Positions 33,426-62,950 of a DNA stretch of 64,000 bases are shown here, one piece after another. The stretch comes from Berberis thunbergii (taxonomy: Eukaryota; Streptophyta; Magnoliopsida; Ranunculales; Berberidaceae), in assembly GCA_003290165.1 (NCBI GenBank), contig QNQO01001846.1, forward strand, positions 124,001 to 188,000, read 5' to 3'. The notes under the pieces were generated by a model. That model saw only the letters and a program-made list of their open reading frames with translations. It was not told the origin of the DNA and did not search any database. A program made the position numbers and the translations under genes. Numbering within the stretch: position 1 is the first letter of the stretch; every line of letters starts with the position of its first letter.

Positions 33426-33860
33426 AAAAAAAAAAAAAAAAAAAGCGGGAAAGTTATTTTGAATTTCATTGCTGAAATTTAAGAGGGAGGGAAGGACCAA
33501 AAAACAGAGAGAGAAGAGAAGAGAAGAAATAGGGAAGACCTCTCCCCAAACCCATCTCCACAGAGAAGAAGAAATCAGAAGAGAAGAGAAGATGAAATCT
33601 TCCATAAACATAGAACTAGATGACGTGGTACTACATACACCTCCATATGCAAGAACCATGGCGCCAAGTAACATGGTAGGGTAGCTACCCATTCCCACCT
33701 GGTCATCATCGGCCTAAATGAATTCATCGGTAGTTTAAGCAAGTTAATTGCCCTTTTCAAGTTAATTCCCACCTGGTCATCATCGGCCTAAATGGATTGT
33801 GATTTCCTTTTTCAAGTTAATTTCAGTTCTCCAATTGTAAGTAAGAAAACAGAACGTAAG
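33426..33860. other. Intergenic DNA with a segment shared with 26060-26230
   Basis: The block CAAGAACCATGGCGCCAAGT… (33650-33740) matches 26118-26205, and CCCACCTGGTCATCATCGGCC is repeated within it at 33693 and 33768. No function is apparent. Confidence 0.5.
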
Positions 33861-33864
33861 AAAC

Positions 33865-34044
33865 ATGTATTTCCCTTACGAGTATCACTTCTTTATGGCG
33901 CAAGATGAACAGAAATGGATATGAGGGCATGATCATGCCCCTGCAGGAAATAATGAAGACTATATTTCTGCTCCGGCTGCTTCAATGGAAGGTGACGGTG
34001 ATAATGACGATGATGGTGGTTATGACTATGCTCCAGCTGCATAA
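33865..34044 (+). pseudogene. IMA peptide gene, type B, interrupted by an in-frame stop
   Basis: Type B IRON MAN-like locus. The ATG at 33865 is in frame with the C-terminal motif DDDGGYDYAPAA and stop at 34042-34044, but a TGA at codon 20 interrupts it. The codons after it still read HDHAPAGNNEDYISAPAASM, aligning with intact 41887 (YDHVPAGN…FISALTAS) but with two extra partial APA(A/G) motifs. An internal ATG (about 33985) would give a 19-residue peptide that is essentially the functional motif alone. Without read-through it is a pseudogene. Confidence 0.8.
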
Positions 34045-34503
34045 TGGACGAACAACATATCGCATTAGCTGTCCATGAAGATGAAGACCTAATTTTAGCC
34101 CACTAGAACCTTGTATTATGTAAACATATAGAGAAACTAACTAAAGAGTACCTTTACTAGAAAATCTCTATTTTTTTTAATCATGAAACCGTGTCATACG
34201 TACATGATTTACGAGGGTTCTTTTACCTACATGAATTGGTTATTCTCAGTACATAGGTCTGTTGCCTGCAGACTCCAGATACACACCAATATGTTAAACT
34301 TAGACAAACGAAGCAATAATGAAAACAAAAGCATAGCCAAGGTAAATCTGTTGGATCAAAGATCAAAATTTAATGCAACAAACAGTAAGCAAACTTCGAA
34401 CTTTCACTCTATCTGTGGAACAACACATAGAATATGTTTATCTTGTTCCCTATTGGCACTTTATCTTTTTCCCTATTGGCACATGAACAGTGAACAAAAC
34501 AGA

Positions 34504-34607
34504 ATATGTTAATGAAGACCATATCTCTGCTCCCAAGTGCTTCAATGAGGGTGATGGTGACGCTGACAATGACGGTGGCCATGATTATACATGCTCCAGC
34601 TGCATGA
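34504..34607 (+). pseudogene. IMA peptide relic, type B
   Basis: Residual sequence NEDHISAPKCFNEGDGDADN then DGGHDY, followed by a 4-base insertion (ACAT) that breaks the reading just before GCTCCAGCTGCATGA (APAA-stop). The N-terminal part is missing. The same insertion occurs at 62850, so the two are copies made after inactivation. Confidence 0.85.
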
Positions 34608-35157
34608 ATGGATGATTGTAGAGTTAGCTATCCATGAACTAGTAATTCGATCATGTTTTTGCAATCAAGACCTAGTTCTAAGCAACTAGAACCTTGTCTT
34701 TTTTAGCGAGATAGAGAAACTTAATATAAAGATTACTTTTACTATCAATTTTGTAGTTTTCTCAATCATGTTATGGTGTCATGCTTTATAGGGTTTCTCC
34801 ATTGTCATGGTGATTTCGAACTGTTGAAAGATAACACTCATGCATGAATTGGTTCTCAATTAATTATGCTTGTGCTATTCCCAATTGGACATTAAGAACT
34901 TTCACATCTTGTTGTGTATCTACTTATTGAAAAGATACACATATCGTATATCAGTTTGTTGCGGCGTTGCCTATAATCTGATTTTGTGTTGAGCTTCGCA
35001 CTTTAACTATATGGAGCCTAATCATAGCTTATGTTTATTTTCCTCTGTGTTTATTACAACCAAAAATGGTGGACTAATAATATTTCATAGACAAAATGAA
35101 CTTTAAAGTTCAAATTTTCTTCTCATATTAATAATCTATGCTTTTCAGAGAAAGAAG
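34608..35157. other. Spacer of the IMA cluster (3' flank and block start)
   Basis: Nearly identical to 62951-63499, and from about 34915 also to 42770-43060. No gene. Confidence 0.7.
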
Positions 35158-35451
35158 TTATATGGGGAAAGGTGAAGTATATGATGAATGATATCTTTCC
35201 ACATTCTCACATATGGATGTTTTTCCACTTACAAAAGTTGGCATGTGTACTGATATATTCAGGCTTCTGCTCGCCACATTATTCCAATTTTCAAGCCACA
35301 TTTTGTGCCACATGTAACTAGCATTGTGTTTCAAACACAATCTTTCAGCATTACACCACACTTCGCATCTGAATGTACACTTTTTTTTTAGCCTAGAAAC
35401 CTTTTCTGACCTTACACACTCTGGTTCCCTCCCACTAAAGAGACCTTTCAC
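35158..35451 (-). other. Conserved antisense open frame in the duplicated block
   Basis: A 97-codon minus-strand frame containing ERLCLKHNASYMWHKMWLEN and SRSLNISVHMPTFVSG. Related frames lie at 43033-43257, 46803-47084 and 63467-63706. The 46803 copy is clearly diverged yet still open. No known domain, no signal peptide evident. It may be a passenger of block duplication or part of a transcript; I do not claim it is coding. Confidence 0.3.
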
Positions 35452-35454
35452 CTT

Positions 35455-35530
35455 TCATTTTCATCTTACATGATATGTGGTCCTAACATGATGGACCAGC
35501 TGCAATATCAAGGGAAGATGATGATTGTAG
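35455..35530 (+). pseudogene. Type C IMA-like relic
   Basis: CATGATGGACCAGCTGCA reads HDGPAA, followed by an acidic EDDD. It aligns with the better preserved type C frames at 37016 and 40066 but has no open frame of its own. Confidence 0.45.
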
Positions 35531-36090
35531 GATAATAAACGATTAAATAGATACTTTCTGAGCTATCACAGTCCTTAAAATCCTGTATTTGTTCGTCTGG
35601 GATGCTACAAAGACTATGGGGAGACCTCATCGTGTTCTTGATGCTCTACACAAGATCTCAAGGTGTTCAATTTTATTCGCCATCAAAACTAACATAATTG
35701 AGTTTGAATATGCTATTCTCTAGGAATCCACGACATAAAAATACATATTTACTATCGAATCAGAAAGTAGCTTCAAGGGTTAAGTTAAAGATGTCCGTAC
35801 TGCTGAAGCTTTCTATGGATCTGAACACATTGTATAACAGCTCTGTGCAGAAAATCCTCCAAGAAAATATTTCTTCTTTAATGTATCTAAAGTACCTTTC
35901 AAATCCCCAACATTTCTAAGCATTGACATACTTTTCACTTTTTCAGGCATCCATTCCTTTTCACTAGCCACCCAAGAAATCCCAATCTTTTCCTGACCCT
36001 ACCATGCTAATAACACAAAAGAATCCTATCATCACTTGCAGCAAAGCAACTATATTTTCCTAGTTGTCAGCTGGTTTTCTATGTGGCACA
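35531..36090. other. Upstream spacer of the type A gene
   Basis: About 90% similar to 43440-43985. No gene; a 73-codon frame inside (35698-35919) is not preserved in the paralogous block. Confidence 0.6.
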
Positions 36091-36092
36091 TT

Positions 36093-36187
36093 ACATGTCA
36101 TCGACGTGTGCTCGCTTTGTGTCTCACACACCCCTTATCGACCAGTCCACAAGTATCGTGGGGAAAACCTTCAATCCCTATATATAA
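36093..36187 (+). promoter_or_regulatory. Type A IMA promoter: palindrome and TATA box
   Basis: ACATGTCATCGACGTGT at 36093-36109 corresponds to the perfect palindrome ACATGTC-ATC-GACATGT of 43986-44002 with one base changed (which creates an ACGTG core). TATATATAA lies at 36179-36187, about 107 bp before the ATG at 36294, leaving a leader of roughly 80 bases. E-box/G-box cores are the known targets of the bHLH factors that drive IMA genes; binding here is inference. Confidence 0.6.
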
Positions 36188-36293
36188 GTATCATTATCTC
36201 TTCCCATTTCTAAACACAAGCACAGGAAACCTCTTCTCCGAGCCTTCTCACAAAGAAGTTCGACTTTTCACTTCAAAAACTTTTCTTCCAAAA

Positions 36294-36509
36294 ATGTTTC
36301 CTGTATCAAAGTTGAGTAGTTCATGGTGGAGAATGCATGATGGGGGTGATGATGTTGATGCATATGATTATGCCTCTGCTGCAACATCAATGGTGGAGAG
36401 AGACGGAGATGATGATGATGATGATGATGATGGTGGTTATGATTATGCACCTGCCGCATCTATGGAAGATGATGGTGATGGTGGATATGACTATGCTCCC
36501 ATTGCCTAA
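36294..36509 (+). CDS. IMA: IRON MAN-type peptide, type A, three motifs, intact
   Basis: A 71-residue, very acidic peptide without signal peptide or membrane segment. After MFPVSKLSSSWWRMHDG it carries three copies of an acidic run plus Y-D-Y-A-x-A: DDVDAYDYASAA (19-30), DDDDDDDDGGYDYAPAA (39-55) and DDGDGGYDYAPIA (59-71, C-terminus). The family consensus is a single C-terminal D-rich GYDYAPAA, which binds BTS/HRZ E3 ligases and spares the bHLH IVc factors, raising iron uptake. Here the best match is the middle motif; the last has Ile for Ala and the first Ser for Pro. The ATG is chosen because all type A copies start there and the leader upstream is conserved. It has a TATA promoter (36179) and a SINE in its 3' flank. 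Family assignment is firm; multivalency is inferred. Confidence 0.93.
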   Translation: MFPVSKLSSSWWRMHDGGDDVDAYDYASAATSMVERDGDDDDDDDDGGYDYAPAASMEDDGDGGYDYAPIA

Positions 36510-36536
36510 ATTGGACTACTTACGTTTGGAGACCTT

Positions 36537-36710
36537 TTTTTTTTCTTTAGAAAGAGAGCTGGGTTTTTATAGGATCCCATAGCCTATCAACAAGGTGCGA
36601 CCTACAGGTCAACACCATAAGAAAGTAACCATGCCGCCGGCGGGTCTCGAACCTAGGACGTGGGGGATAAACCCACACAACCCTAACAACTCGACCATAA
36701 CACCATTGGC
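36537..36710 (-). mobile_element. tRNA-derived SINE in the 3' flank of the IMA gene
   Basis: On the minus strand a tRNA-like head carries an A-box-like TTATGGTCGAGTTGTTAGG and a B box GGTTCGAGACC (36643-36653), and the element ends in an A-run (T-run at 36537-36543 on plus). A 14-bp target duplication CGTTTGGAGACCTT flanks it (36523-36536, 36711-36724). The paralogous 3' flank at 44430 has the target once, without the element. Confidence 0.9.
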
Positions 36711-36724
36711 CGTTTGGAGACCTT

Positions 36725-37010
36725 ACCAACTGCAACATTTTTTTGTTATGAAAAGTTACAATTTTTGTATCAATTATTGGCGTGGGACTATGACTAAGTA
36801 GGTCTTTCTTTTTAGTTTCAATGTTTTTAATGTACTTTTTAGCATTTACTTTTCTGTTAATGTTGGATTTGGTTTAACTTCTCCCATGAGAAACCTCAAA
36901 GAGAGCCTACTTATACTGTTTACATCAAGTCTCACAGCAACAAATACTGACGAACACAAAATCCAGCAGCATTTCAATCTCTGCAAGAAGCACAAAATAA
37001 AGCAGTACTA
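36725..37010. other. Spacer downstream of the type A gene
   Basis: Aligns with 44445-45110 in part. No gene. Confidence 0.5.
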
Positions 37011-37015
37011 CATAC

Positions 37016-37126
37016 ATGGGACGTGTAGATGATAATGGCTATCTAGATGACCCAGCTGCAATAGAACGCAACATTTTAATTATGATAATCATTATATCCA
37101 TCGTAGAGATGCCATATCAGCACTAA
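37016..37126 (+). CDS. Type C IMA-like short frame (36 codons)
   Basis: MGRVDDNGYLDDPAAIER followed by a hydrophobic Ile-rich tail. The DDNGYLDDPAA part resembles the IMA motif with a PAA end, and the same region in other blocks gives DDNDYQDGTAA (40066) and HDGPAA (35455, 43381, 63831). The motif is not C-terminal here. Probably a decayed gene; coding status doubtful. Confidence 0.35.
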   Translation: MGRVDDNGYLDDPAAIERNILIMIIIISIVEMPYQH

Positions 37127-37252
37127 TTGAATAACTTGACAAAGACGATACACTTTTGAATTGATATACATTATCTATTGATGAATGGAGATTTTTATAT
37201 CTTTAAATTTTCCAATTTATTGATAAGCAAAGAAAGTTAAAAAGAATAAAGA

Positions 37253-37430
37253 ATGGCTTCAACTTACAAGGGTGGCTTCTTTATGTTTAATATGCATGGT
37301 GATGAAGGTTATGCATATGACCTTTGCCCTGCAGGAAATAAGATATATGTTAGTGAGGAGATGGAGGGTGACAGTGATGAGATGGCCGTAGTAAATATGC
37401 CCCAGCTGCATTGTATGATCCACAACATAA
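37253..37430 (+). pseudogene. IMA peptide relic, type B, frameshifted
   Basis: The ATG at 37253 opens MASTYKGGFFMFNMHGDEGY then AYDLCPAGNKIYVSEEMEGD, aligned with intact 41887, including the internal pseudo-motif (YAYDLCPAG). After GDSDE a frameshift changes the reading; in the other frame the end still reads KYAPAA but the stop codon is lost (TGA to TTG). The shifted frame continues to 37483 with unrelated residues. Likely inactive. Confidence 0.82.
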
Positions 37431-38460
37431 TATTAGCTATCCATACAGATGTAGTACTCATGTTTTCGCATTCAAAGACCTAGGTCTAACCACTAGAAAA
37501 CTAGAAAATTAGTACTTTTCTTAATGGTATGATGTCAGATAGAAACATTCATGCATGAATTGGTATTCTTAATTAACCCACATTTTCACTGATAAATAGG
37601 AGTTTGACTGTTTGAAGTAATTGGTCTACATGTTATTCATCAAACAATTTGCCAACCCAAAGTTCATCTAGATTTTAGTAATGCTTTCTTTACGAATTGT
37701 TTACTAATAAATAAGGTCAAACGCAGTTGTGTACTCGAATTTATTAAGATATTCAATCAGTGTTCTGAGTATGACTTCTATGATTATATCTAAGATAGGT
37801 CTGCGTTTATTATGATACACCCAGTTTAACAGATCTGTGATTACAAGATGTAAAAAGATTTATAATGTTTGATAAATAGCCCCAGCATGATTCTTTTGTT
37901 TTGTGTTGTTTTCGTGTATATCTTTGTTTTGCTAAGAAGTATGGGGCCCTCTAACTTTTCACATTTTGTTGAGTATCTACTCACTGAAACCTTGCACAAA
38001 GTCGATGACCTGCAATTGTGAGCCAGACTCTATATCAGATCACAAATGCAACAAAGCAGAATTTTGTACGGAACAACATAACTATAGCCTATGCTTATTG
38101 CAACCAAGAATAGTGGACTACAGTCAAAAACATTTCTGAGAGAAAAGAAGCTTTTACAGATTCAAATGCGGTTATCATTCAATAAGCTCTACATTTCAGA
38201 TGAAAAAAGGGCCATGGGGAAAAGTAAAGTACTAATGACATGTATCCACATTCTCACATATGTGATTTTTTCCCTTGTGAAAGTTGGCATGTGTTTTGAT
38301 GTATCCAGGCTTCTGCCGCTGCCTCATTCCCCTTGTGATGCCACATGTGCCTGGCATTGTGTTTCAAACACAATCTTGCAGCACTACTCCACACTTATTC
38401 CACATCTGAATATACACTTTGGGGTGCCTCGAAACCTTTTCTATCCTTGCCCACTGGTTC
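37431..38460. other. IMA-cluster spacer
   Basis: Contains a more diverged copy of the block around 35158-35450 at 38214-38470. No gene recognised. Confidence 0.5.
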
Positions 38461-38530
38461 TTTTCCACTAAAGAGATGTTTCACTTACATGACATGCGGT
38501 CCTAACATGATGGCCCAACTGCAGTAGCTA
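38461..38530 (+). pseudogene. Type C IMA-like relic
   Basis: ATGTTTCACTTACATGACAT then CATGATGGCCCAACTGCAG (HDGPTA). Frame interrupted. Confidence 0.4.
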
Positions 38531-39291
38531 ATAAAATAATGTAATAGGCGTAGTAGATGAATATAGATAATAGACCTATAGCACTACCTGGGAGTCCTTA
38601 CAACCCTATGTTTACTTGTTAATTGTTCCTGGATGCAACAAGGGGTGCTAAATCTAACAACCTAATCATGAGACTATGGCCTTCTTTCGTCGTGTTTTTG
38701 ATTCACAAGATTTCAGGGTGTTCAATTTTAATCACTACCAAAACTGACCAAGTTGAGAGAATATTAGAAGACACTGTATAATAAATCTGCACAGAATACA
38801 TATCTTCTTTAATCAACGTTCCTACTTCCTAAAGTACCTGTCAAATCCCCAACATTTCTAAGCATTGACATGCTTTTCAGGCATACATTCCTTTCAATTA
38901 GCCCCCAATCGAAATCCCAATCTTTTCATGATTCTATCAGGCAATACTGGTACACTTATCCAAAAGGCAGTGGTAACCCGAGAATGCCGCTCCCCTCTGT
39001 CTGGTTGTCCCGTGTTATCCATAGTTTGGGAAAAAGAATCCATTCACCACTTGCAGGAAAGCAAATATGTTGTCATCTACACGTACTTGCTTTGTGTCTC
39101 ACACACCCCATAACTACTAATCCACAAGTCTCACGTGTTATGTGCAAAGCCTCCTTTAACTGTATTTAATATCACTCTCTCCCCATATCCAAACATAAGC
39201 ATAGAAATCCTGCTCTCCGAACCTTCTCACAAAGAAGTTTCAGATTTCTCTTTTCATTTCAGAAAAAATTCTTCCAATTTCCAAGAGAAAT
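38531..39291. other. Upstream spacer of the 39292 type A relic
   Basis: Diverged copy of 35560-36290. A CACGTG G-box is present in TCTCACGTGTTATG near 39131. Confidence 0.55.
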
Positions 39292-39481
39292 ATGGTAACT
39301 ATATCTATTTTGAGTAGTCATGGTGGAAAATGCATGAGGATGATGATGGTTATGATTATGCCCCTGCTGCAGCTTCCATTGTGAGAGATATGATGATGGT
39401 GGTGGCTATCATTATGCTGCGTTAGTGGAAGGTGATCATGACGATGATGATGGTGGATATGACTATGCTTCAGCTGCCTGA
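39292..39481 (+). pseudogene. IMA peptide relic, type A, two frameshifts
   Basis: The ATG at 39292 (MVTISILSSH…) loses frame after AGTAGT because one T is missing compared with 36294, and again later. Across frames the three motifs are still legible: DDDGYDYAPAA, a degenerate YHYAAL, and DDDDGGYDYASAA with a stop at 39479. No single frame encodes a motif from an ATG, so it is a pseudogene. Confidence 0.85.
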
Positions 39482-40062
39482 ATTGGATTATCTAAATTTG
39501 GAGACCTTTCTAACTACAACATTTTTGTTCTGAAAAGATTTAATTTCTGTGCTAATCATTGGCATAAGACTATAACTAAGTAGGGCTTGCTTTAGTTGTA
39601 AGTTGTCTTTTTTAAGATTCCAACAAGGATTCTGATGATGATTAGTACGACTTTTAGTGGATTGTGATAGCTATGCTATAATCTTTCATACATTAATTTA
39701 TATCTCCCATAGAAGGTAGAACCCCAAAATCTTATCGGGAATTGTTAGTTATTGGTTGATACTAACACAAACCTAAAAAAGAAAGAATTACAACCCCCCA
39801 AAGAATCCTACTTATACAGTTTATACCAAAGCTAACAAAACAAGAGCAACAACAAGCAAACTGAAGAAAAATATAAAATAAATCATAATTATCAGATTCA
39901 AGGCAGAAAATACTAACAAACAAAAAATCCAAAAGCACTTCTATCTCTGTAAGAGAGACTAATAGTACTGCATACTTCCATTTGCCTATACACATAATTC
40001 ATGCCAAAGCAACCTCTTCTAACAAAATCCAGGGGTACATGGGACACCCATTAAACAAGTGT
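39482..40062. other. IMA-cluster spacer
   Basis: Diverged copy of the sequence downstream of 36509 and 44416. No gene. Confidence 0.5.
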
Positions 40063-40065
40063 TTC

Positions 40066-40134
40066 ATGTTTCATTTTACATGGCATGTATGTGTGGATGA
40101 TAATGATTATCAAGATGGCACAGCAGCAAAATAA
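40066..40134 (+). CDS. Type C IMA-like micropeptide (22 codons)
   Basis: A complete short frame MFHFTWHVCVDDNDYQDGTA then AK and TAA. The end DDNDYQDGTAAK is comparable to D-rich…YDYAPAA with Gly-Thr for Ala-Pro. The equivalent at 45203 begins MFRFTWYV and is frameshifted; other copies keep ATGTTTCA and the xDGPAA part. Too short to be sure; it is the best preserved member of a third subfamily. Confidence 0.35.
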   Translation: MFHFTWHVCVDDNDYQDGTAAK

Positions 40135-40173
40135 TGAAACATTTCGGCTAAATGATGGTTATAGGCATATTAG

Positions 40174-40431
40174 GTGCATAATGAGATACCTTATCAACAT
40201 GAATCTAATATGTTGATGGAGATGATACACTTTAGAATTCATAGAGATGAACAGTATAAAGCCGTACCTGAGAATCGATTAAAAAAACCCTTTTATTTAG
40301 AGGTATCGTATCATGCCCCTGCAGGAACTAATTTCCATGTCAATGTAGACCATATCTCTGCTTCGATTGCGTCAGTGGATGATGATGGTGATAATGATAG
40401 TGGTTATGATGACCTTGCTCCCGCTGCATGA
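40174..40431 (+). CDS. IRON MAN-type peptide, divergent type B with novel N-terminus
   Basis: An 85-codon frame ends SIASVDDDGDNDSGYDDLAP then AA and TGA. Compared with the family motif it has a one-residue insertion (YDDLAPAA for YDYAPAA) and a shorter acid run. The middle (YHAPAGTNFHVNVDHISASI) aligns with the type B middle. The first 45 residues (MHNEIPYQHESNMLME…) come from sequence that is spacer in the other units, so this N-terminus is new to the family or the true start lies elsewhere. Open throughout, but the motif change may weaken ligase binding. Confidence 0.55.
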   Translation: MHNEIPYQHESNMLMEMIHFRIHRDEQYKAVPENRLKKPFYLEVSYHAPAGTNFHVNVDHISASIASVDDDGDNDSGYDDLAPAA

Positions 40432-41880
40432 ATTGATGATCCACATTACCTAATGATAAAGATGTAGTAATTTTAGATCACACTTTTGCAGTCAAAGACC
40501 TACTTCTAAGCCACTAGATAAAAACAACATCATAGAGAGTACCTTTATAAACAAATTATGTACTTTTCTTAAACACGGTATGATGTCATGATTTACACAA
40601 GAGTTCTTCTAAATGATAACAATGATATCAAATTATTGAAAGACAAACACGCATGCATAAAAAACGGTTATCTGTTTGAGGTCATTGATCTATTTTATTG
40701 ATTAAACTAGCTGCCACTCAATACTCATCCAGATTTTATAAGTTATGCTTCCATTTTTTAATTTAAATAAAGTATTTTAATTAAGGTTCATTTATGTAAA
40801 GAGTGTTTTAGGAACTGTGTCTATACCCAACAGAGCTACTATTGGAAGATACAACAGATTTTGGGCTATTATGGTGTTTAGTTAATGGCCTCATTATAAA
40901 GCTCAAGGTTGACCACAGAAACCTGTCATTAACAACTTTTGTGTTCTTTTGTCTATTTTTCGGAAACTCTTAAAAAAAAACATAATATAGTATATGGGTA
41001 TGAAGCCTACGATGTCAACTTTCCGTTGAACAAAAAGTCCAGCCAAGCGGAATATTACAGCATCAAATCACAATTTAATGCAACAAAGAGCACCACCAAA
41101 CTGCCAATCTCACTAGTTCTATAGAACGTACCATTGCCTATGCCTAGCTCTATAGAACGTACCAAGATAGTGAACTAAAGTCTTAATCATAATATTTTCT
41201 TTAAGAAAAACTAAACACAGTTCAGTTTTTCCATTTTTGAATTGTACAGTTGATAAAACATAACCTAAAAATTTCAGGTTGAGAACATCAATATTAGCGG
41301 AAAAAAATTTGCAGTGATCATTTTCACAAAAATAACCTACTCTGACATGTTCATTCAATAAAGTTTTCTGTCAAACATATAGATTCGCTTTATTCTAACT
41401 CCACTACATAATCGCAGAATGGTTGTCAATGCATGGTGTCTGCAAAACCGAATATCTGCAGTACCATTTGAAGGAATGAAATCTCTTTACCTTCTCTAAG
41501 CCATACAAAGCATATCTGTTGTGGAATGTACAAAAGTAGCTTCTTTCTTTCCCATCAAATGCCCCCACAGACCACAGTGTATAGATATTTGAACTTGCTT
41601 CCTAAAGCGACAGCGTCAACTATTGACTATTACGTGTCATTCGCAGCACTGCAAAACACATTCCCAGTATTAGGCATCCCACATTCTATAACGATGGTTA
41701 CACGCGCTCCATGCAGTGGCCTTGTGTATATGGCAAGCCAACAATGTATGCCTGCCAATATAATCACATACAATCAAATCATACAAACTGCAGTTCCTTC
41801 TAGTCTCCCACAACTAAGTAAAGCAGAAAATTGCATATCTTCCTCTCACTTCTCCAACTGCTAGTGAGAAGAAAAGAAGT
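40432..41880. other. Spacer upstream of the intact type B gene
   Basis: No independent gene supported; the 112-codon frame at 41526-41864 overlaps the probable promoter and leader of the gene at 41887 and has no domain. Confidence 0.5.
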
Positions 41881-41886
41881 AAAAAC

Positions 41887-42081
41887 ATGGATTCACTTAC
41901 AAGGATGACTTCTTTATTGTGCAAGATGCATGGTAATGAAGACTATGAATATGACCATGTTCCTGCAGGAAATAAAATATATAGTGAAGACTTTATCTCT
42001 GCTTTGACTGCTTCAGTGGAGGCTGATGGTGATGATGATGATGATGATGATGGTGGTTATGACTATGCTCCAGCTGCATAA
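41887..42081 (+). CDS. IMA: IRON MAN-type peptide, type B, intact
   Basis: A 64-residue acidic peptide: MDSLTRMTSLLCKMHGNEDY, then EYDHVPAGNKIYSEDFISAL, TASVEADG and the C-terminal DDDDDDDGGYDYAPAA, an exact match to the IMA/FEP consensus motif as I know it. Residues 19-27 (DYEYDHVPAG) look like a worn second motif, suggesting descent from a two-motif ancestor. No signal peptide; such peptides act in cytosol/nucleus and move in phloem in other plants. Start chosen at the first ATG after a stop-containing leader and supported by relatives at 33865 and 37253. Only clean member of type B in the window. Confidence 0.94.
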   Translation: MDSLTRMTSLLCKMHGNEDYEYDHVPAGNKIYSEDFISALTASVEADGDDDDDDDGGYDYAPAA

Positions 42082-43030
42082 ATGGATAACCACAATATGC
42101 TATTAACGTTCCAGGAAGTGTAGTACTTAGTCATGTTTTTGTAGTAAAAGATCTAATTTAAAGACACTAGAGTGCATTTTCTTTAATCAGATAGACGAAC
42201 TTATTATAAAGAGTACTTTTACTATAGTATTTTTATTTTTCTTAATTATGTTATGCAGTGTAATTTACATAAATGTTCTTCCACATGCCTGAATCAATTA
42301 TTCTCAATTAGTGATATTCATTTAAGCTTCTACTATTCTTGAACAAATATTGAACTAGCTAATACCAACAGCACCATTGACAGATATGAGTTTGACAGTG
42401 AGATTGGTCTTATTTTATTCATTAACTAATTTCCCATGTCAGCATTCATCTAAATTTTAGAACCATGTTTTCTTTACAAACTCTCTATTTAGTTAGGGAT
42501 ATTAAGAAAACCATACCAAGAACACCATTGACAAAAAGGAGTTTGACTGTTAGACAACATTGTTCTACATTATTCACTGAACGTTGCCAGCCCAAACTCC
42601 ATTTCAAGTTTAATAACCATGTTTTCTTTGTGCATTATTTATTAATCATTAAGGTCAAACACACTTGTCGTACAGGATATAGGTAAATGGCCTCAATACG
42701 ATATTTTTTCTTCTTGGGGTGGGGGGGGGGGAGGATTAAAAAGTATAATGTCCTCAAACTTTCATATTTTGTTGTGTATCTACTCATTGAAAAAGTACAC
42801 ATATCGTATATCAGTCTGTTGCCTATAATTTGATTTTGTGTCGAATCAAAAGCAGAGCCAAACTAAATCCAATATCAGGTCACAATTAAATGCAACAAAG
42901 GGTATACACAAACTTGGCACTTTCATCATAGCTTATGTTTATTTTCCTCTGTGTTTATTACAACCATAAATAGTGGACTAATAATAATTCACAGACAAAA
43001 TAAATTTTAAAAGTTCAAATTTTCTTCTCA
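42082..43030. other. IMA-cluster spacer
   Basis: From 42750 it is a copy of 34900-35150 and 63250-63480. A G-run lies at 42718-42732. No gene. Confidence 0.55.
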
Positions 43031-43032
43031 TA

Positions 43033-43257
43033 TTAATATCTCTGCTTTTCAGGGAAAGAAGTTATATGGGGAAAAGGTGAAATATGATATTTGTCCACAT
43101 ACTCACATATGGATGCTTTTTCCCTTACAAAAGTTGGCATGTGTACTGATATATCCAGGCTTATGCTCGCCACATTATTCCAATTTTCAAGCAACATCCT
43201 GTGCCACATGTAACTGGCATCGTGTTTCAAACACAATCTTTCAGCACTACTCCACAC
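43033..43257 (-). other. Conserved antisense open frame, second copy
   Basis: 74 codons, 80-90% identical to the corresponding part of 35158-35451. Confidence 0.3.
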
Positions 43258-43344
43258 TTCACATCTGAATATACATGTTTTTGTGCCTAGAAACCTTTTC
43301 TGACCTTACCCACTCTGGTTCCCTCCCACTAAAGAGACTTTTCT

Positions 43345-43430
43345 TATTTCATTTTCATCTTACATGATATGTGGTCCTAACATGATGAACCAGCTGCAAT
43401 ATCTAGGGAAGATGATGATTGTAGGATAAT
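43345..43430 (+). pseudogene. Type C IMA-like relic
   Basis: CATGATGAACCAGCTGCA (HDEPAA) in the same place in the block as 35487. Confidence 0.4.
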
Positions 43431-43985
43431 AAACGATTAAATAGATACTTGCTAAGCTAACACAGTCATTAAAATCCTGTATTTGTTCGCCTTGTATGCT
43501 ACAAAGAGTATGGGGAGACCTCATCGTGTTCTTGATGCTCTACGCGAGATCTCAAGGTGTTCAATTTTATTCGCCATCAAAACTAACATAATTGAGTTCG
43601 AATATGCTATTCTCTAGGATACACGACATAAAAATACATATTTACTATCCAATCAGAAAGTAGCTTCAAGGGTTAAGTTAAAGATGTCCGTACTGCTAAA
43701 GCTTTCTATGCACCTTAACACATTGTATCACAGCTCTGAGCAGAATATCCTCCAAGAAAATATATCTTCTTTAATGTATCTAAAGTACCTTTCAAATCCC
43801 CAACATTTCTAAGCATTGAAATGCTTTTCACTTTTTCAGGCATCCATTCCTTTTCACTAGCCACTCAACAAATCCCAATCTTTTCCTGACCCTACCATGC
43901 TAATAACACAAAAGAATCCTATCACCACTCACAGCAAAGCGACTACATTTTCCGAGTTGTCAGCTGGTTTTCTATGTGGCACATT

Positions 43986-44080
43986 ACATGTCATCGACAT
44001 GTGCTCGCTTCGTGTCTCACACACCTCTTATCGACCAGTCCACAAGTATCGTGGGGAGAACCTTCAATCCCTGTATATAA
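43986..44080 (+). promoter_or_regulatory. Type A IMA promoter with perfect palindrome
   Basis: ACATGTCATCGACATGT (43986-44002) is a perfect 7+3+7 inverted repeat containing two CATGT cores. TATATAA is at 44074-44080, 119 bp before the ATG at 44199. Confidence 0.6.
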
Positions 44081-44198
44081 GTATCACTATCTCTTCCCAT
44101 TTCCAAACATAAGCACAGAAAACCTCTTCTCCGAGCCTTCTCACAAAGAAGTTCGACTTTTCACTTCAAAAACTTTTCTTCCAAACTCTAAGAGAAAA

Positions 44199-44416
44199 AT
44201 GGTTCCTGTATCAAAGTTGAGTAGTTCATGGTGGAGAATGCATGATGGGGTGATGATGTTGATACATATGATTATGCCCCTGCTGCAACATCAATGGTGG
44301 AGAGAGACGGAGATGAAGATGATGATGGTGGTTATGACTATGCACCTGTTGCATCTATAGAAGATGATGGTGATGATGATGATGATGGTGGATATGACTA
44401 TGCTCCCGCTGCCTAA
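44199..44416 (+). pseudogene. IMA peptide gene, type A, single-base frameshift
   Basis: The ATG at 44199 reads MVPVSKLSSSWWRMHDG as in 36294, but a G-run is one base shorter (4 instead of 5, about 44246), so translation leaves the motif frame and stops at 44360. In the motif frame the rest is intact and better than 36294: DTYDYAPAA, DEDDDGGYDYAPVA and a full C-terminal DDDDDGGYDYAPAA, ending at 44416. All else (promoter, leader) is preserved. Either a very recent loss or a sequencing error in a homopolymer; if the latter, it is a functional three-motif gene. Confidence 0.88.
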
Positions 44417-45198
44417 ATTGGACTACTTACGTTTGGAGACCTTACCACTGCAACATTTTTGTTCTGAAAAATCACCAACTTTTGTACTAATTACTGGCGC
44501 AAGACTATAACTAGTAGGGGGGTTTTTTAGTTCTAATGTTTTTACGGGTGAGTTGCTTCTTTTAACTAGATTCCTATGATGACTAGTAAGATAGATGTAC
44601 CTTTTCCCATTTATACTTTCTGTTAATCTTAGATTGGGTCTTATGACAATAGTTGATGGATTACTATGCAACAATCTTTCATACACCCATAGAATAGAGT
44701 GAAATAAATTTTGTCAAGGATCCGTAACTATTATTTGTCAGTATAGTGATATTAACATAAACCTAAGAAGAAAGAAGAAGAACCGCCCAAAGAATGCCTA
44801 CTTATACAGTTTATAAAGTTAACAAAATCACGAGCTATAGAAAAAGAAGGTTCCAGTGAAGATTCCAAGGAATGTCAGTTACTGTATGATAACAGTACAT
44901 TGGTACTGACACAAACATATAGAAAAAGAAGTAGAAGTCCCCCAATGAAATCCTACTTATATAGTTTATGTCAAAGCCAACAAACTCAAAGAGCAAGAAT
45001 AAGCTAATTGAGAAAATATATACAGTAAGTCGAATTCACCAAGACAGAAAATACTAACACACAAAATCCACAGCATTTCAATCTCTGTAAGAAACACAAA
45101 ATACAGCACTAGTACATAGCTCCCATTTGCCTATACACATTTTCATACAAAGGAAACATTTTCTACAAAAATCCAGTGGTAAACCCATTAAACAAATG
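44417..45198. other. IMA-cluster spacer
   Basis: Contains the unoccupied counterpart of the SINE site (GTTTGGAGACCTTACC near 44431). No gene. Confidence 0.6.
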
Positions 45199-45202
45199 TA
45201 CC

Positions 45203-45262
45203 ATGTTTCGTTTTACATGGTACGTGTGGATGACAATGGCTGTCAAGATTGCATATAATAGA
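45203..45262 (+). pseudogene. Type C IMA-like relic, frameshifted
   Basis: ATGTTTCGTTTTACATGG then GTGTGGATGACAATGGCTGT; aligned with 40066 but missing bases put it out of frame. Confidence 0.45.
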
Positions 45263-45429
45263 ACATCTATGACAATGGTTATAGGCATAGTAGATGCATA
45301 AGGAGATGCCATATCAATGCTAATCAAATAACTTGACAAAGATTATACACTTTTGAAATCGGTAGAGATAAAGACTATAAAGCTCTACCTGAGAATCCTC
45401 ACAACCCTATCATTTAGTGGTAGTGTATC

Positions 45430-45546
45430 GTGCGTCTGCAGTAAATTTTATGTTAATGAAGACCATATCTCTGCTCTGACTTCTTCAATGGAGGTGATGG
45501 TGATGATGACGATGATGGCAGTTATGACTATGCTCCAGCTGCATGA
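45430..45546 (+). pseudogene. IMA peptide relic, type B, frameshifted
   Basis: FYVNEDHISALTSSME is in one frame, GDGDDDDDGSYDYAPAA and TGA (45544) in another; a small deletion after TCAATGGAG separates them. No ATG precedes the motif in its own frame, so the motif cannot be made as a peptide. Confidence 0.87.
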
Positions 45547-46150
45547 ATATAGAGTCAGCTATCCTTTTAAGATGTAGCAATTGGATCATATTTATGCAGT
45601 CAAAATTTAGTTCTAAGCCAATAGAACCCTTTATTTTGTAATCAGATAGAGAAACTCATTGTAATGAGTAGTAGAAAATATTTTACTTTAATTATTCCTG
45701 TAACGTTATCATGCTTCTGCACAAGGGTTATTCTACACAGTGATGACGATATCAAATTATTGAAAGACAATAATCATGTATGAATAGCGTGTTCTCAATT
45801 AACCAACAAGACCATGACATATGGAAGTTTGACTATTTGAGGTCATTGGTCTATATTGTTCATTATGTCATTACTTAACTTTCATCTAGATTGTAGAACC
45901 ATTTTTTTAATACATTATCTATAATAATAAAGGTCCAACACATTTGTGTCTCTATTAAGTTTCCAAGTGGATTTGTAACTTTCAAAAAAAAAAAAAAAAA
46001 AAGCTATTTGTACTAAGGTATTTTATGATGTTTGATAAATGGCCCAGTGCAATGCTCAGGTTTCTAAGGATAACCATCGTTAACCCCCACTCAGGAGCCC
46101 AACGTCCTCATTGGCACACTTCCGGCTGGAACCTGGCTCTGATATCATTC
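45547..46150. other. IMA-cluster spacer, end of unit
   Basis: A-run at 45984-46002. The primer-site-like GCTCTGATATCA at 46136-46147 belongs to the element that follows. Confidence 0.5.
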
Positions 46151-46500
46151 TGTAATGACCCGATCCACATTGTATGACATTGTCCATTTTGGACTTAACC
46201 ACCCTCACGGCTTTAAACGCGTCATACTAAGGATCCAACCTCGCACATATATAGCACATACCCTTCCCTCACCCAGGTAATATGGGACTATAACACCTAG
46301 GTAGTCTGCCAGCTTCTGAGCCCGCCCACACATAGTAGTCTGCCAGCCTCTGAGCCCGCCCACACATCATAGCTCGTCAGCCTCTGAGCCCACCCACACA
46401 AGGCTGTCACAACAAGTTGTACATAAGTAGGAGCCTTAATTTCGAGACCCATACTCTAGCTGCAAAAGCAGGTATCTCTCTATGTAATCCTTAGTTTTTC
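46151..46500 (-). mobile_element. Small LTR element (TRIM-like) with three 33-bp repeats
   Basis: On the minus strand an LTR-like end …CATTACA abuts TGATATCAGAGCC, one base off the usual initiator-Met primer-binding site TGGTATCAGAGCC. Inside, AGTCTGCCAGCCTCTGAGCC-type units repeat three times at about 46300, 46334 and 46369. A fragment of the same family lies at 33030-33210. Outer LTR boundary not resolved. Confidence 0.6.
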
Positions 46501-46802
46501 TATAATGCATAATGCTTCATCAAAAAAATAACATTAACAAGCTCAGTGGGGTTTTTTGGGAGGAGAAACACTCTGGAGGAGAGGGGGGCTAGGCTTGCGC
46601 CAACCAGTTTATTAATAAGAAAGCAAAATGGATACGCATGGGAGGGGGAGGCGGACATAGAATTAAGCTTTAACCCCATATCTATTGCAATTTCTATGGA
46701 ACATATCTATTGCCTATGGGGATTATTTATTGCACCCGGGAATAGTGCACGTAACTCTTGCATTATTTCTAACCAAAATAAGCTTTAGAGATTCAAATTC
46801 TG
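46501..46802. other. Unclassified sequence
   Basis: An 80-codon frame (46546-46788) has no recognisable domain. Confidence 0.35.
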
Positions 46803-47084
46803 TTACCATGCTCTGCTTTTAAGGGGAGAAATATCGGGAAAAGGTAAAGTATATGATGATATCATGTCCACAATCTCAATATGAGATGCTTTCCCCTTAC
46901 AGGCATGTGCACTGATGTATCCAGGGTTCCGTGCTTTGTAGCCATTCCACTTGTCATGCCAAATTTCCATGCCACATGTACCTGCATTGTGTTTCAGGCA
47001 CAATCTTGCAGCACAACTCCACACTTCATATTTGAATATGCACTTTTTTGTCCTGGAAGCTTCTGTGCTCTGGTTCCCTCCCAC
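46803..47084 (-). other. Conserved antisense open frame, diverged copy
   Basis: 93 codons; shares RLCLKHNA and the position of W/C residues with 35158-35451, but many residues differ. That it remains open is mildly suggestive of constraint. Confidence 0.3.
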
Positions 47085-47090
47085 TAAAGA

Positions 47091-47175
47091 GATGTTTCAA
47101 CTTTCGTGATTCCTCTTATATGGCAACAGTGCCTATCATTATCATGATGGCCTCGCTGCATCTAGGGAAAATGAT
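47091..47175 (+). pseudogene. Type C IMA-like relic
   Basis: ATGTTTCAACTTTCGTGA is stopped early; downstream YHYHDGLAAS is legible. Confidence 0.45.
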
Positions 47176-47827
47176 GGTTAAAGGCATAGTAGAGGGAAAA
47201 GGAGGTGGTTTATGAGATGGAGATGATAGACTTTGAAGTCCTAGCTGGGAGCCCATGGCACCCTATGTGTACTTGTTGATTCTTCCTGGATTCTACAAGG
47301 AATTCCAAATCTGTCCAACCTAATAAATCAACAAACTGATTGTAGAGAGACCTCGCTGTGATCTTGATGCTCTACACCAGACTTCAAGGTTTACAAATTT
47401 ATTCACCAACATAACAGCACAAGTTTGAAATTGCTACTCGGCTACTCCCTATCATCCATGGGATAAATTCCGGTTCAATGAGTGAGATGTTAAAGCAATG
47501 AGGAAAATCTAAAATGAGGCATAAATTAACTTTCTTATATACGATGTAGATAGTTATTGAATGAGGACACTGCTCCAAGGATTAGGTTGAAAATGTTGAT
47601 GCCACTAAAGCTTTCTATGCCTGAACGTGTAGTATAAAAGCTCTGGACAGGATACCCTCTAAGAAAATATATGTAAAGTACGTGCCAAAACCCCATTAGT
47701 CCATGCAATCAAAATCTCAATCTTTTTACGACCCTACCATGCAAAGAACCCAAAACAATCCTTTCGTCACTTGCAGCAAAGCAACCATATTTTCTAAGTT
47801 GTCATTTGTTTTTCTATGTGGCACATT
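47176..47827. other. Upstream spacer of the 48042 gene
   Basis: Diverged relative of 35560-36090. No gene. Confidence 0.5.
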
Positions 47828-47923
47828 CCGTGTCATCGACATGTGCTTGTATTGTGTCGCACACGCCCCTACACGACCAGTCCACGCGTCTAATGTGTGC
47901 AAAGCCTTCCTTTCCTGTATATA
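47828..47923 (+). promoter_or_regulatory. Type A IMA promoter of 48042
   Basis: CGTGTCATCGACATGTG (47829-47845) is the palindrome with one arm mutated; TATATA lies at 47918-47923, 119 bp before the ATG. Confidence 0.55.
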
Positions 47924-48041
47924 GGTACCATTACCTCTTCCTATTCCCCAAAACAAGCATCATATCCAATTCTCCAAGCCTTCTAAGAAACAAATTCCAC
48001 TTTTTCACTTCGGAAACTTTTCTTCAAACTTTTAAGGGAAA

Positions 48042-48257
48042 ATGGTTCCTATATCAATGTTCAGAAGTTCATGGTGGAGGACGTCTGAGGGGGATGATGG
48101 ATATGATTATGCACCTGCTGCATCATCTGTAGAGAGAGACGCATATGATGATGATGACGATGATGGTGGCAACGATTGTGCACCTGCTGCATCCACAAAA
48201 GGTGATGGTGATGACGATGATGATGATGGTGGATATGACTATCCTCCAGCTGCATGA
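48042..48257 (+). CDS. IMA: IRON MAN-type peptide, type A, three motifs, intact
   Basis: A 71-residue peptide starting MVPISMFRSSWWRTS. Three consecutive motif units follow: EGDDGYDYAPAA (16-27), DDDDDDGGNDCAPAA (35-49) and DDDDDDGGYDYPPAA (57-71). Unit 1 has the canonical end but a short acid run; unit 2 has YDY replaced by NDC, introducing a cysteine; unit 3 has Pro for Ala in YAPAA. So no unit is fully canonical, and the three have diverged in different positions, unlike 36294. The frame is complete and has the shared type A promoter and leader. The activity of each unit cannot be judged from sequence. Confidence 0.92.
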   Translation: MVPISMFRSSWWRTSEGDDGYDYAPAASSVERDAYDDDDDDGGNDCAPAASTKGDGDDDDDDGGYDYPPAA

Positions 48258-49150
48258 ATTGGACTACCTGTATCTTGAGACTCCTCTAACTGCAATACAC
48301 TTCGGGTCCTTGAAATCATAACATTTGTACCAGTTATACAAGTATGAGACTATAACCATGCTTACTTTTAATGTTTTTGTAGGTGAGTTTGTCTTTTAAC
48401 ACTTTTCATCAGGTTTCTCTGATGACTATCTTTCTTGTTAATGTTAGATTTGGTTTAACAACAATAGTTGATGGTGATTGCTATGATGTCATCCTTCACA
48501 CATTAACTCAGATCTCTATAGAATGGATTGAATTGTCAAGTAATGTTATCGATAACAATACAATAGTCTATCACAAATCTATACAGAAACAAGTATAAAC
48601 CCCCAAAGAAAACCTACTTATACAGTTGATACTAAACCTAAGAAATTCAAGGGAAACAATATAAATAAGCCCCAAGTTAAGTATTTGTGTTGAGTAAATG
48701 AAGATACCATTTACTTGTAATCATGAAATTCAAGAAATAAAATACTGACGAAGATGAAACCACTGGACATTCTACTCTCAGAAAAAAAAATTAGCAGTAT
48801 GACAAATTTTGCATTTTTCTAGATACATTTCATACCAAGGTAACCTTTTTAACATAACTCAGTGGTGCATCCATTAATAAGATGTTTCATTTTAACATAA
48901 CTCAGTGGTGAATCCTATATACCCTGTTGTTTGGTGGGCTTTAGGGTAATTGTTGAAAAGTTTCACTAAGATTACTAATGATGTCTCACACACCCCTCAA
49001 CCATCAGTCCACACAGTGTCAGTGTTTAGAACCTTCATTACTTGTATATAGGCATCATTATCGCTTCCTATTTCCAACAACAAACATACCTGTCCTCCCA
49101 GTCTTCTTACAGAAAGTTTTGTATGTCTCTAAAGAACCTTTCTTCCAAAC
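48258..49150. other. IMA-cluster spacer
   Basis: Contains a decayed leader of the next type A relic (CTCACACACCCCTCAACC, 48984). No gene. Confidence 0.5.
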
Positions 49151-49160
49151 ACTAAACTAA

Positions 49161-49330
49161 ATGAAGATTGTGGTTCCTATGCCAATGTTGAGTAGTTCAT
49201 GGAGAAAGTGCCTGGTGGAGATGATAACAGTGATGCTGATGATGGATGTGATAGAGCCCCTGTTGCAGTGACGATAGAGAAAGACAGACATGATCATGAT
49301 GATGGTGACTATGTTTTAGAAAACTTTCTA
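49161..49330 (+). pseudogene. IMA peptide relic, type A, heavily decayed
   Basis: The ancestral start codon is GTG (49170); an upstream in-frame ATG at 49161 gives MKIVVPMPMLSSSWRKCLVE then a shift. In the motif frame DADDGCDRAPVA and HDHDDGDY remain, and the C-terminal motif is lost. Confidence 0.75.
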
Positions 49331-51000
49331 GTTCATATTTGGGTCCTGAAAAAAATTATAACTTTGGTATAGTTTATGTTATAGAAAAAATAAGACTATA
49401 ACTTATTGCAGTTTGGCTTTACTTTAATAATTTAGGTTAAATTCCCCTGATGATTAGTAAGATGTAATTTTTTTCATTTATCTTTTCTTGTTAATGTTAG
49501 ATTTGGTATAATCATAAGATTTAATGGAGATGGGGGTTGCTACACTGTAGTGTTCCTTACATGAACTCGCTGTAGTATAAAACTGCCAAGATTATGGCTA
49601 TGATGATGCTGTAATAGATACATGAGAATTGAGATACTTTCCGAGATGATAGACTTTAAAGCACTGCCTCATAGTCCTTCGAAAATCCTATATCTGTTTG
49701 TTGATATTTCTTGGGTACAAATATGTTGATAATTTGGTATGTAAAGATGGGTTCTTAGGATGGTTTTTTGAACTTTGAAAATCCTCATAGTCAACGAATT
49801 TTGACCATTGACCACTGTTGAGCGCGTGTCTGACACGTATTTGACACTTGATACGAGAGATTTTTGGAGAGTTTGTGCATTCTTGCTTTTAATGCTATAT
49901 ACAAAAACTGTTATTGATGGATTTCATGATCATTCTTGAAACATTTCATTGAGACCGCTAAGATGGTGTAAGATTCTAACAAGTTTTCTTTCTTTTGCAA
50001 AGTTTTAAACATTACTAAAAAAAAAAAAAAAAAAAATTTTATATATATTCCTAATACTTTGACGGGCCTTTATGCAGATCTATTAAAGGTAAATTGATCA
50101 GGATAAATGTATGTTGTATTTGAATTATATCAATGTTGACATCTCTATCAAATCCACGTGATATTTATATCCTAGCTTTTAGACATTCAACTGCGAGAAG
50201 CAGGATGTCTTGATAAAAATTGTTAATCTGTAACTACTTAGGATACAAACAACCTTGATTACAGCGTGGAAAATACATATTACAAGATCTTGAAGCTCTA
50301 AACAAACCATTTATCCACAGAAACTACCATAACTGAGGTTTTCACCGAGTTTCTCTCTAGCCTCTAGGATCCAATAAGTAAAACGACAAGGTAAACATGA
50401 AATATAATGAGATATATACAATTTCACTCTTGTACACTCGTATGTGTTGGATGAGAAAGCTACTCTAGAACTAAGTTGAAATTTTTTACGAACCTAAAGC
50501 TTTCTAAACAAGTGCAAATATTTTGTATAGTGACTCCACGAAGAATCCCCTTTAAGAAAATACAAGTTTATTAATGTATATAAAGCATCTGTCAAACCCC
50601 CAACATATCCAAGCATTGGCATGCCTTTTAAGCATTAATTCTTTTCCATTAGTCCCCCAACAAAATCCCAATCCTTTAACTACCCTACCATGCAAAACAC
50701 CAAAACCGAACCTTTCATCATTCGCAGCAAAGCCACTATGTTTTCTGAGTTGTCAGTTATTTTCCTACATGGCATAATCCACATTGCGCGCTTGAGCTTT
50801 AATTGTGTCTCACACATCCCTCGACAATCAGTCCACAAGTCCCATGTGTGTAACACCTTCCTTCCTTGTATATAAGCATCATCCCACTCCCCATTTCTAC
50901 CAATGGACATACACATACCACACTCCTAGCCTTTTCGAAAAAAGAAAGTCCCATTATCCTTTTCCTATAAAGAAAAACTCTCTTTCGAAGCTAATTGAAA
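49331..51000. other. IMA-cluster spacer
   Basis: Includes an A-run at 50017-50035 and the leader TATA (TGTATATAAGCATCATC, about 50867) of the relic at 51003. A DYGYDDAV-like trace near 49604 may be a type C remnant. Confidence 0.5.
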
Positions 51001-51002
51001 AA

Positions 51003-51136
51003 ATGGTTCCTATTTCAATGTCAGTAGTTCTCAGTGAAGAATACATGGGGATGATGACGGTGATGATGGATATGACTATGCACCTGCTGCAACATCGACT
51101 AAACAAGACGGAGATGAGGACGATATATATATATAA
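51003..51136 (+). pseudogene. IMA peptide relic, type A, truncated after first motif
   Basis: The ATG (51003) reads MVPISMSVVLSEEY, shifted against DDDGDDGYDYAPAAT, which lies in another frame. The second unit (QDGDEDD) runs into a (TA)n tract and stops at 51136. Promoter and leader resemble those of active type A genes. Confidence 0.8.
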
Positions 51137-62845: not shown

Positions 62846-62849
62846 AATA

Positions 62850-62950
62850 TGTTAATGAAGACCACATCTCTGCTCTCAAGTGCTTCAATGAGGGTGATGG
62901 TGACACTGACAATGACGGTGGCCATGATTATACATGCTCCAGCTGCATGA
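62850..62950 (+). pseudogene. IMA peptide relic, type B, outlying copy
   Basis: NEDHISALKCFNEGDGDTDN then DGGHDY, with the same 4-base insertion before the APAA codons as 34504. It marks the start of the third copy of the block. Confidence 0.87.

Follow-up and report, generated by a model that had tools for sequence, protein, structure and literature searches.

The window analysed here is a stretch of 64,000 nucleotides of Berberis thunbergii DNA (bases 124001-188000 of contig QNQO01001846.1, 213,488 bases long, in assembly GCA_003290165.1 of 2.24 Gb and 11,732 contigs; C1846, for this contig, and C11170, C2246, C2350, C2639, C135 and the like are shorthand for contigs of this one assembly). 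It is plant DNA with a G+C content of 35% and contains 13 loci of the IRON MAN (IMA/FEP) type, all on the plus strand, 12 of them at 33.9-51.1 kb and one at 62.85 kb. An earlier note on the same DNA had described 12 such loci in 17 kb, with a thirteenth at 62850 and all on the plus strand; that observation is confirmed, both in its positions and as a whole. The two subfamilies that it recognised are also supported, with six A-type loci (36.3, 39.3, 44.2, 48.0, 49.2 and 51.0 kb) and seven B-type loci (33.9, 34.5, 37.25, 40.2, 41.9, 45.4 and 62.85 kb), named in map order B0, B1, A1, B2, A2, B3, B4, A3, B5, A4, A5, A6 and B6. They are listed here with the blocks to which they belong and with a repeated element, C; unless marked otherwise, E values refer to a hidden Markov model (HMM) of outside proteins, described in the following section.

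33595..51901 (C1846:157595-175901), plus: block 1 of the array
33895..34044, plus: B0, B type; frame from upstream ATG broken, tail GGYDYAPAA intact; E 1.5e-11
34504..34612, plus: B1, B-type pseudogene; 4-nt insertion in tail, N-terminus not recognised; E 5.5e-4
36294..36509, plus: A1, open A type, 71 aa, three motif copies, tail YDYAPIA; E 4.3e-16
37253..37420, plus: B2, B-type pseudogene; N-terminal part readable, tail shifted to another frame; leave-one-out DNA profile E 2.6e-17
39291..39481, plus: A2, A-type pseudogene; frameshifts, motifs readable piecewise; E 3.3e-9
40210..40431, plus: B3, B type, open, 73 aa, divergent tail GYDDLAPAA; 12.7 bits, E 0.035
41887..42081, plus: B4, open B type, 64 aa, canonical tail GGYDYAPAA; E 1.8e-12
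44200..44416, plus: A3, A type; frame broken by a 1-nt deletion after codon 16
45400..45546, plus: B5, B-type pseudogene; the frame with the tail GSYDYAPAA has no ATG; E 1.6e-6
48042..48257, plus: A4, open A type, 71 aa, three motifs, tail YDYPPAA; E 5.5e-11
49180..49330, plus: A5, A-type pseudogene; GTG in place of the start codon, final motif missing; E 0.0059
51007..51133, plus: A6, A-type pseudogene cut off after the first motif; E 1.2e-4
62724..64000, plus: start of block 2, which runs on beyond the window to the end of C1846 (213488)
62847..62955, plus: B6, B-type pseudogene, opens block 2; E 0.011
35021..35689, plus: C1, first of five copies of the repeated C element, between B and A
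38068-38744, 42925-43583, 46709-47337 and 63365-64000: other copies of the C element

The A genes have a promoter alignable over some 300 bases, followed by a leader and then the frame, which where intact comprises about 68-74 codons with three motif copies; a TATA box lies 115-141 nt before the start position in five of the six A copies (115 nt 5' of the ATG in A1). In the B genes only the last of the three motifs is well preserved, the other two being worn. Within the window the order of modules is B0 B1 C A1; B2 C A2; B3 B4 C A3; B5 C A4; A5; A6, followed by LINE-like and copia sequence and then by B6 C. Comparison of the window with itself shows that adjacent copies were duplicated as a unit; for example, 35021-36536 and 42925-44443 are 91% identical.

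Assignment to the IRON MAN family

The six reading frames of the window contain 13 matches to the tail-motif pattern, as against none in 100 dinucleotide-preserving shuffles; matches and loci do not correspond one to one, some A loci having several and some broken loci none. A profile search with five window peptides gave 324 proteins at E<=10, from many flowering plants, of which 120 are listed. Two of those listed bear the names IRON MAN 5 (P0077, E 4.9e-5) and IRON MAN 4 (P0105, E 2.7e-4), both of Lotus japonicus; the other listed names are mostly 'hypothetical protein' or similar, and the relatives include Malus, Gossypium, Glycine, Citrus and Populus (30 sequences inspected). The outside HMM was made from the 103 of the 120 listed matches that end in PAA, none of them from the window, and is partly non-independent in that its proteins were gathered using window sequences. 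Run against 3486 six-frame pieces, it detects every locus except B2 (12 of 13, E 4e-16 to 0.035); beyond these, E falls under 1 only for second frames of A2 (1.5e-4) and A3 (0.27). Leave-one-out DNA profiles of the A and B copies, in which A1 was removed together with A3 and B1 together with B6, recover all 13.

The peptides themselves point in the same direction. A1 combines the family N-terminus with three motifs, reading MFPVSKLSSSWW...YDYASAA...GGYDYAPAA...GGYDYAPIA, where the best Malus match reads MFPLSKLMMSASWC...YDYAPAA...DYDYAPAA...GGYDYAPAA. B4 aligns over its whole length with Lotus IRON MAN 4 (46%, with low-complexity filter and composition correction off) and has the C-terminus YDYAPAA, as do 86 of the 120 listed relatives. 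A 17-residue Asp-rich C-terminal stretch ending in YDYAPAA is found in B4, in A3 of C11170 and C2639 and in the tail of the broken B0, whereas A1, A4 and B3 deviate from the YDYAPAA tail at one or two of the last residues. The four open frames (64-73 residues) have a computed pI of 4.05-4.86, with 20-27% Asp in A1, A4 and B4 and 12% in B3. A single-sequence protein search with B4 gave no match, Pfam assigned no family to the five window peptides (one chance-level row, E 0.25), and a PDB search with B4 returned nothing better than E 0.86. The outside HMM and the Lotus IRON MAN 4 and 5 matches support the earlier assignment to the IMA/FEP family and, judged from sequence, the window array most likely consists of IRON MAN genes, open and broken.

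Open and broken copies

Full-length frames from ATG to stop are present at four of the 13 loci (A1 and A4, 71 aa each; B4, 64 aa; B3, 73 aa), in line with the earlier count of about four open copies, but only B4 ends in YDYAPAA, the others ending in YDYAPIA (A1), YDYPPAA (A4) and DDLAPAA (B3). Short frames ending at or near the tail are found in B0 (19 residues, MEGDGDNDDDGGYDYAPAA, beginning at 33985), in A3 (40 aa from 44294, retaining two motifs and the canonical tail) and in B1 and B6 (33 aa, in the tail frame for the last five residues only). B6 is 97% identical to B1 and its downstream flank, and the 4-nt insertion is common to both.

The reality of the breaks was assessed by comparing 12 window loci (all except B6) with copies at least 90% identical in the fetched contigs, a test that sees gaps and not point changes. 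Nine of the 12 have no private gap at all, and that of A1 is a 3-base insertion in frame. A private single-base gap is found in A3 (against five copies) and in B0 (against one copy only, the allele-like copy in C2246, which is open for 42 aa and from which the window B0 differs by this 1-nt gap). Because B1 (against two other copies), B2 (five), A2 (four), B5 (four), A5 and A6 show no private gap, they are most likely real pseudogenes, whereas A3 and B0 may be polymorphic or misread. In the case of A3, the deletion is private to C1846, and both C11170 and C2639 have the gene whole, canonical tail included. Thus, while the birth-and-death array proposed earlier is supported, the death of A3 is doubtful.

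Across contigs, the B4 frame is intact in five of seven copies, on four contigs (the window, block 2 of C1846, block 2 of C11170, C2350 and C2639), the remaining two being changed mid-gene (C2246) or broken (block 1 of C11170). With its canonical tail and this shared open frame, B4 is the strongest candidate among the window loci for a functional gene, followed by A3. The A4 peptide is identical in C11170. The tails of A1 and A4 are altered, and the activity of their predicted peptides is uncertain.

The array beyond the window

A search of the whole assembly with the codon pattern for YDYAPAA, as the earlier note had suggested, showed that the array continues beyond the window as far as the contig end. 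The pattern occurs 61 times (57 forward, 4 reverse; 0 in the control), with 16 occurrences on C1846, nine of them in the window. C1846 carries 12 A-type and 11 B-type loci, 23 in total, over 54 kb (157.7-212.1 kb). They form two blocks, at 157.6-175.9 and 186.7-213.0 kb, which are 92-97% identical in aligned pieces, and the second of which reaches the contig end. The unit of birth exceeds the gene: it comprises mixed A/B modules and a block of about 12 loci that is present twice on C1846.

Other contigs carry related arrangements. C11170 (42 kb) is array in its entirety, with 19 loci, and is 99.2% identical to C1846 over 23.8 kb, a stretch that begins at A2, takes in the remainder of block 1 and reaches the start of block 2; it lacks an 8-kb stretch found in C1846 at 189.2-197.1 kb. 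C2246, which is allele-like, has 12 loci and a left flank with about 1% substitutions relative to C1846. Its left end corresponds to block 1 (97.0% identity along 7.3 kb), and the 16.6 kb on its right are closer to block 2 (97.9%) than to the equivalent segments of block 1 (93.3-96.5%), a mosaic consistent with gene conversion or unequal crossing-over between the blocks. C2246 stops 5 kb past its last locus, and its final 1.1 kb matches C1846:181.3-182.4 kb, between the blocks, so that another block may follow beyond its end. On C2350 the A and B copies are partly inverted, in an inverted copy of several loci, and an intact A-type gene at the right edge (C2350:33802-34311) has a profile score above that of A1 or A4 of the window. 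The same contig also holds a B0-type gene (C2350:12276-12512, minus strand) in which an internal duplication gives a 78-aa open frame with repeated motifs. The comparisons with C2639 rest on 5 kb of that contig. Away from the array, a dispersed intact A-type gene of 68 aa lies on the 1.5-Mb contig C135 (C135:1453308-1456327, L001, minus strand) and shares 81-84% identity with A6-type copies along some 730-830 bp. Dispersed broken B4-like copies lie on C144, C339 and C389 (L002, L003 and L004), with 80-85% mutual identity in the longer aligned pieces, L004 having two in opposite orientation. Matches to the YDYAPAA pattern are also found on C11229, C6254, C7439 and C7669.

Unequal crossing-over between blocks could have given the species IMA haplotypes of about 12 loci beside others of 23 or more, in which case the dose of iron-signal peptide would vary between the chromosomes of one plant. 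We put this forward tentatively and hold it to be doubtful, because C2246 ends 5 kb after its 12 loci, in sequence like that between the blocks.

The quality of the assembly bears directly on the copy number. Over C1846:199-213 kb, comparison with C11170 gives 4-66 single-base indels per 2 kb and 0-8 substitutions, and in the bins from 199 kb comparison with C2246 gives 11-45 indels and 0-10 substitutions. Since real divergence would bring substitutions too, these dense indels are mostly consensus errors, and the broken frames in this stretch are unreliable. The same signature would be left if block 2 and part of the copy number were artefacts of a noisy, partly redundant assembly and the real array had about 12 loci; moreover, the right part of C2246 has no substitutions relative to block 2 of C1846 in four 2-kb bins and a part bin, with 11-44 indels in each. 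However, the two blocks differ by 3-8%, above the level of a copied consensus, though partly through indel error, and the junction of block 1 with block 2 is present in two contigs, C1846 and C11170 (possibly one haplotype), the latter without the 8-kb C1846 stretch. We regard such inflation as rather unlikely and, in any event, the window's own 13 loci are independent of it.

Selection on the A-type genes

The ratio omega (dN/dS) was estimated for the 28 pairs among eight intact A-type genes, which are non-independent since they share sequences. The 13 most divergent pairs, those with the C2350 edge copy or the C135 copy, give omega of 0.22-0.37 with an upper bootstrap bound of at most 0.71; the other 15 give 0.20-1.62, mostly with wide intervals. 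Among the latter, A4 of block 1 against A4 of block 2 gives 0.20 (confidence interval, CI, 0.03-0.74), and the six pairs within the close A1/A3 group give 0.52-1.62 with very wide intervals. An earlier run with fewer codons had given 0.41 (0.17-0.95) for A1-A4, 0.22 (0.07-0.61) for A3-A4, 0.96 (0.17-3.10) for A1-A3 and 0.33 (0.11-0.88) for B4-B0. The copies of B4 are too alike for their omega to be informative. The A type has been under purifying selection for much of its longer history. The earlier note had named neutral dN/dS among the open copies as part of the evidence that would count against its view; tested in part, this expectation separates the divergent A pairs, which are constrained (0.22-0.37), from the recent ones, which are uninformative.

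Proposed function and alternatives

We propose that the array expanded first through duplication of modules with both A and B genes and later through that of a larger block, and that its copies are now decaying one by one. On sequence grounds, small acidic peptides of some 64-74 residues are the most likely products of the intact copies (A1, A4 and B4, together with A3 on other contigs), the A type having three motif copies and the B type one good copy and two worn ones. By analogy with known family members, these would act inside the cell as decoys, the poly-Asp stretch and YDYAPAA tail occupying the E3 ligase BTS/BTSL, so that subgroup IVc bHLH factors would escape degradation and iron-uptake genes would stay on. 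IMA peptides are reported to compete with subgroup IVc bHLH factors for BTS/BTSL, sustaining the iron-deficiency response (PMC10167411), and the last seven residues of the FEP3/IMA1 tail are reported to be required for BTSL1 binding in yeast (PMC9226616). Induction by iron deficiency, binding to BTS and an effect on iron uptake would accordingly be expected from the family literature. Taken as a whole, the earlier interpretation stands as regards the IMA/FEP family, the two subfamilies and birth and death, with four amendments, to the copy numbers, the unit of birth, A3 and the tails.

Several observations weigh against a set of working iron-signal genes. The promoters of the open copies have no G-box and no excess of E-boxes, which were sought as support for iron regulation. 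B3 is open, yet a poor match to the family profile (12.7 bits). Among the 120 listed relatives, none has the PIA end of A1 and two have a PPAA end like that of A4. An in-frame stop is common to the three A3 copies of block 2 type (C1846, C11170 and C2246). Pairing both copies of A4 with both of A1 and both of A3 (eight pairs) gives omega of 0.37-0.51 with upper bounds of 1.08-1.32, A1-A3 gives 0.68 (CI 0.15-2.84), A1 against its block 2 copy 1.02 (CI 0.09-2.00), and A1 of block 2 against A3 of C2639 1.62 (CI 0.17-2.58). Because the close pairs give no sign of constraint, a recent relaxation of selection on the close A copies is possible.

Carried to its end, this line of evidence would make the whole array a decaying relic, with the working IMA genes elsewhere, for example the intact A-type genes on C135 or at the edge of C2350. 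Seven of the 13 window loci look truly pseudogenic (B1, B2, A2, B5, A5 and A6, without private gap, and B6, which has the insertion of B1), the tails of A1 and A4 are off-consensus, and the recent pairs lack visible constraint. Yet B4 is open with a canonical tail in five of seven copies on four contigs, A3 is whole with a canonical tail in two contigs, and the omega of 0.20 (CI 0.03-0.74) between the A4 copies of the two blocks counts against a relic, which we consider improbable. Still less plausible, to the point of being very unlikely, is that the peptides are 'Asp-rich' Ca2+-binding proteins of pollen-pistil interaction and not of iron signalling, as proposed for clementine. In favour of this, the family to which At1g47400 and At1g47395 belong was studied in clementine under the name Asp-rich, its genes being up-regulated in self-incompatible styles (PMC3305554), and the clementine genes, expressed in tobacco, are reported to have changed the pattern of pollen-tube growth (PMC9316813). 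Against it, AT1G47400 and AT1G47395 are IMA1 and IMA2 (PMC9465050), genetic and binding evidence favours iron signalling (PMC10167411, PMC9226616) and one clementine gene, cit.5776, is represented by ESTs from iron-deficient roots (PMC3305554, Table 2). The calcium and iron roles are not mutually exclusive.

IMA peptides promote the plant iron-deficiency response, and a copy-number difference between haplotypes, if true, would constitute a natural dosage series for the signal. The three-motif A copies are possibly multivalent BTS decoys and could show whether extra motifs strengthen the decoy.

The C element and flanking sequences

The C element measures about 650 bp; four of its copies separate B from A within modules, and the fifth follows B6. 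A C profile matches the regions upstream of B3 (E 6.8e-12) and B5 (E 2.3e-8). The score of the C consensus against A was equalled or exceeded in 3 of 200 shuffles and that against B in 19 of 200, as against 0 of 200 for A against B; the protein HMM found nothing in the element. C contains IMA-like readings such as HDGPAAISREDDD, yet a third IMA subfamily is not claimed.

Between blocks 1 and 2 lie LINE-like reverse-transcriptase remnants (52292-54211, minus strand) and a copia retrotransposon with several broken frames (57561-61326, minus strand), for a fragment of which the highest identity among the 120 matches listed, from many plants, is 73%. Pfam recognised nothing in ten flanking pieces apart from two reverse transcriptases, of which one scored under the curated cut-off. 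Two further pieces, 18009-18260 (plus strand) and 11043-11336 (minus strand), we take to be fragments resembling the splicing factor CWC22 and an EF-hand protein, respectively; Pfam gave no match for either.

Relation to known IMA and Asp-rich genes

Tandem, multi-motif IMA genes as such are already known, and what is new is the larger size of this mostly broken array, its structure of modules and blocks, and the possibility that copy number differs among contigs of a single assembly. In a search of mainly non-subscription literature, no earlier account of a large or copy-number-variable IMA array was found among the matches listed, judged by title and the start of the abstract, except PMC3305554. 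That 2012 survey covered Asp-rich genes of clementine, cacao, castor bean, Medicago and Arabidopsis (Caruso et al. 2012, PMC3305554), and describes proteins of 44-94 residues with one to four poly-D/G domains, in clusters of two to seven linked genes, five of the seven Medicago genes then known being clustered. The self-incompatibility genes called 'Asp-rich' in citrus fall within the IMA family, as the listed At1g47400 and At1g47395 are IMA1 and IMA2 (PMC3305554, PMC9465050), and the main text of the 2022 Asp-rich paper (PMC9316813) does not contain 'IRON MAN', 'IMA' or 'iron'. Two literatures, that on citrus Asp-rich self-incompatibility genes and that on the IMA family, are thereby joined.

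Compared with IMA/FEP genes in general, the Berberis loci share small acidic proteins with poly-Asp followed by a YDYAPAA tail, the tandem arrangement and an N-terminus M..SK..SW that is seen in several eudicot relatives. They differ in having more loci per array than the accounts consulted, most of them broken, and in the off-consensus tails of A1 and A4. At 64-73 residues, the open frames of the window agree with the short acidic proteins of the family, of about 50 residues in Arabidopsis and 44-94 in the 2012 survey. The earlier statement that genomes usually hold a handful of IMA genes suits rice, with two, and is too low for Arabidopsis (8; PMC10167411), Lotus (8; PMC10825120) and Medicago (14; PMC10297080). 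The Asp-rich genes of the 2012 survey are the same family under another name, and cit.5776 has three motif copies like the A type, but the clusters reported there have two to seven genes as against 23 loci on one contig here (PMC3305554). The Medicago truncatula family is of like order in size, with 14 genes, but all 14 are reported to be expressed in nodulating roots (PMC10297080), whereas most copies in Berberis are broken.

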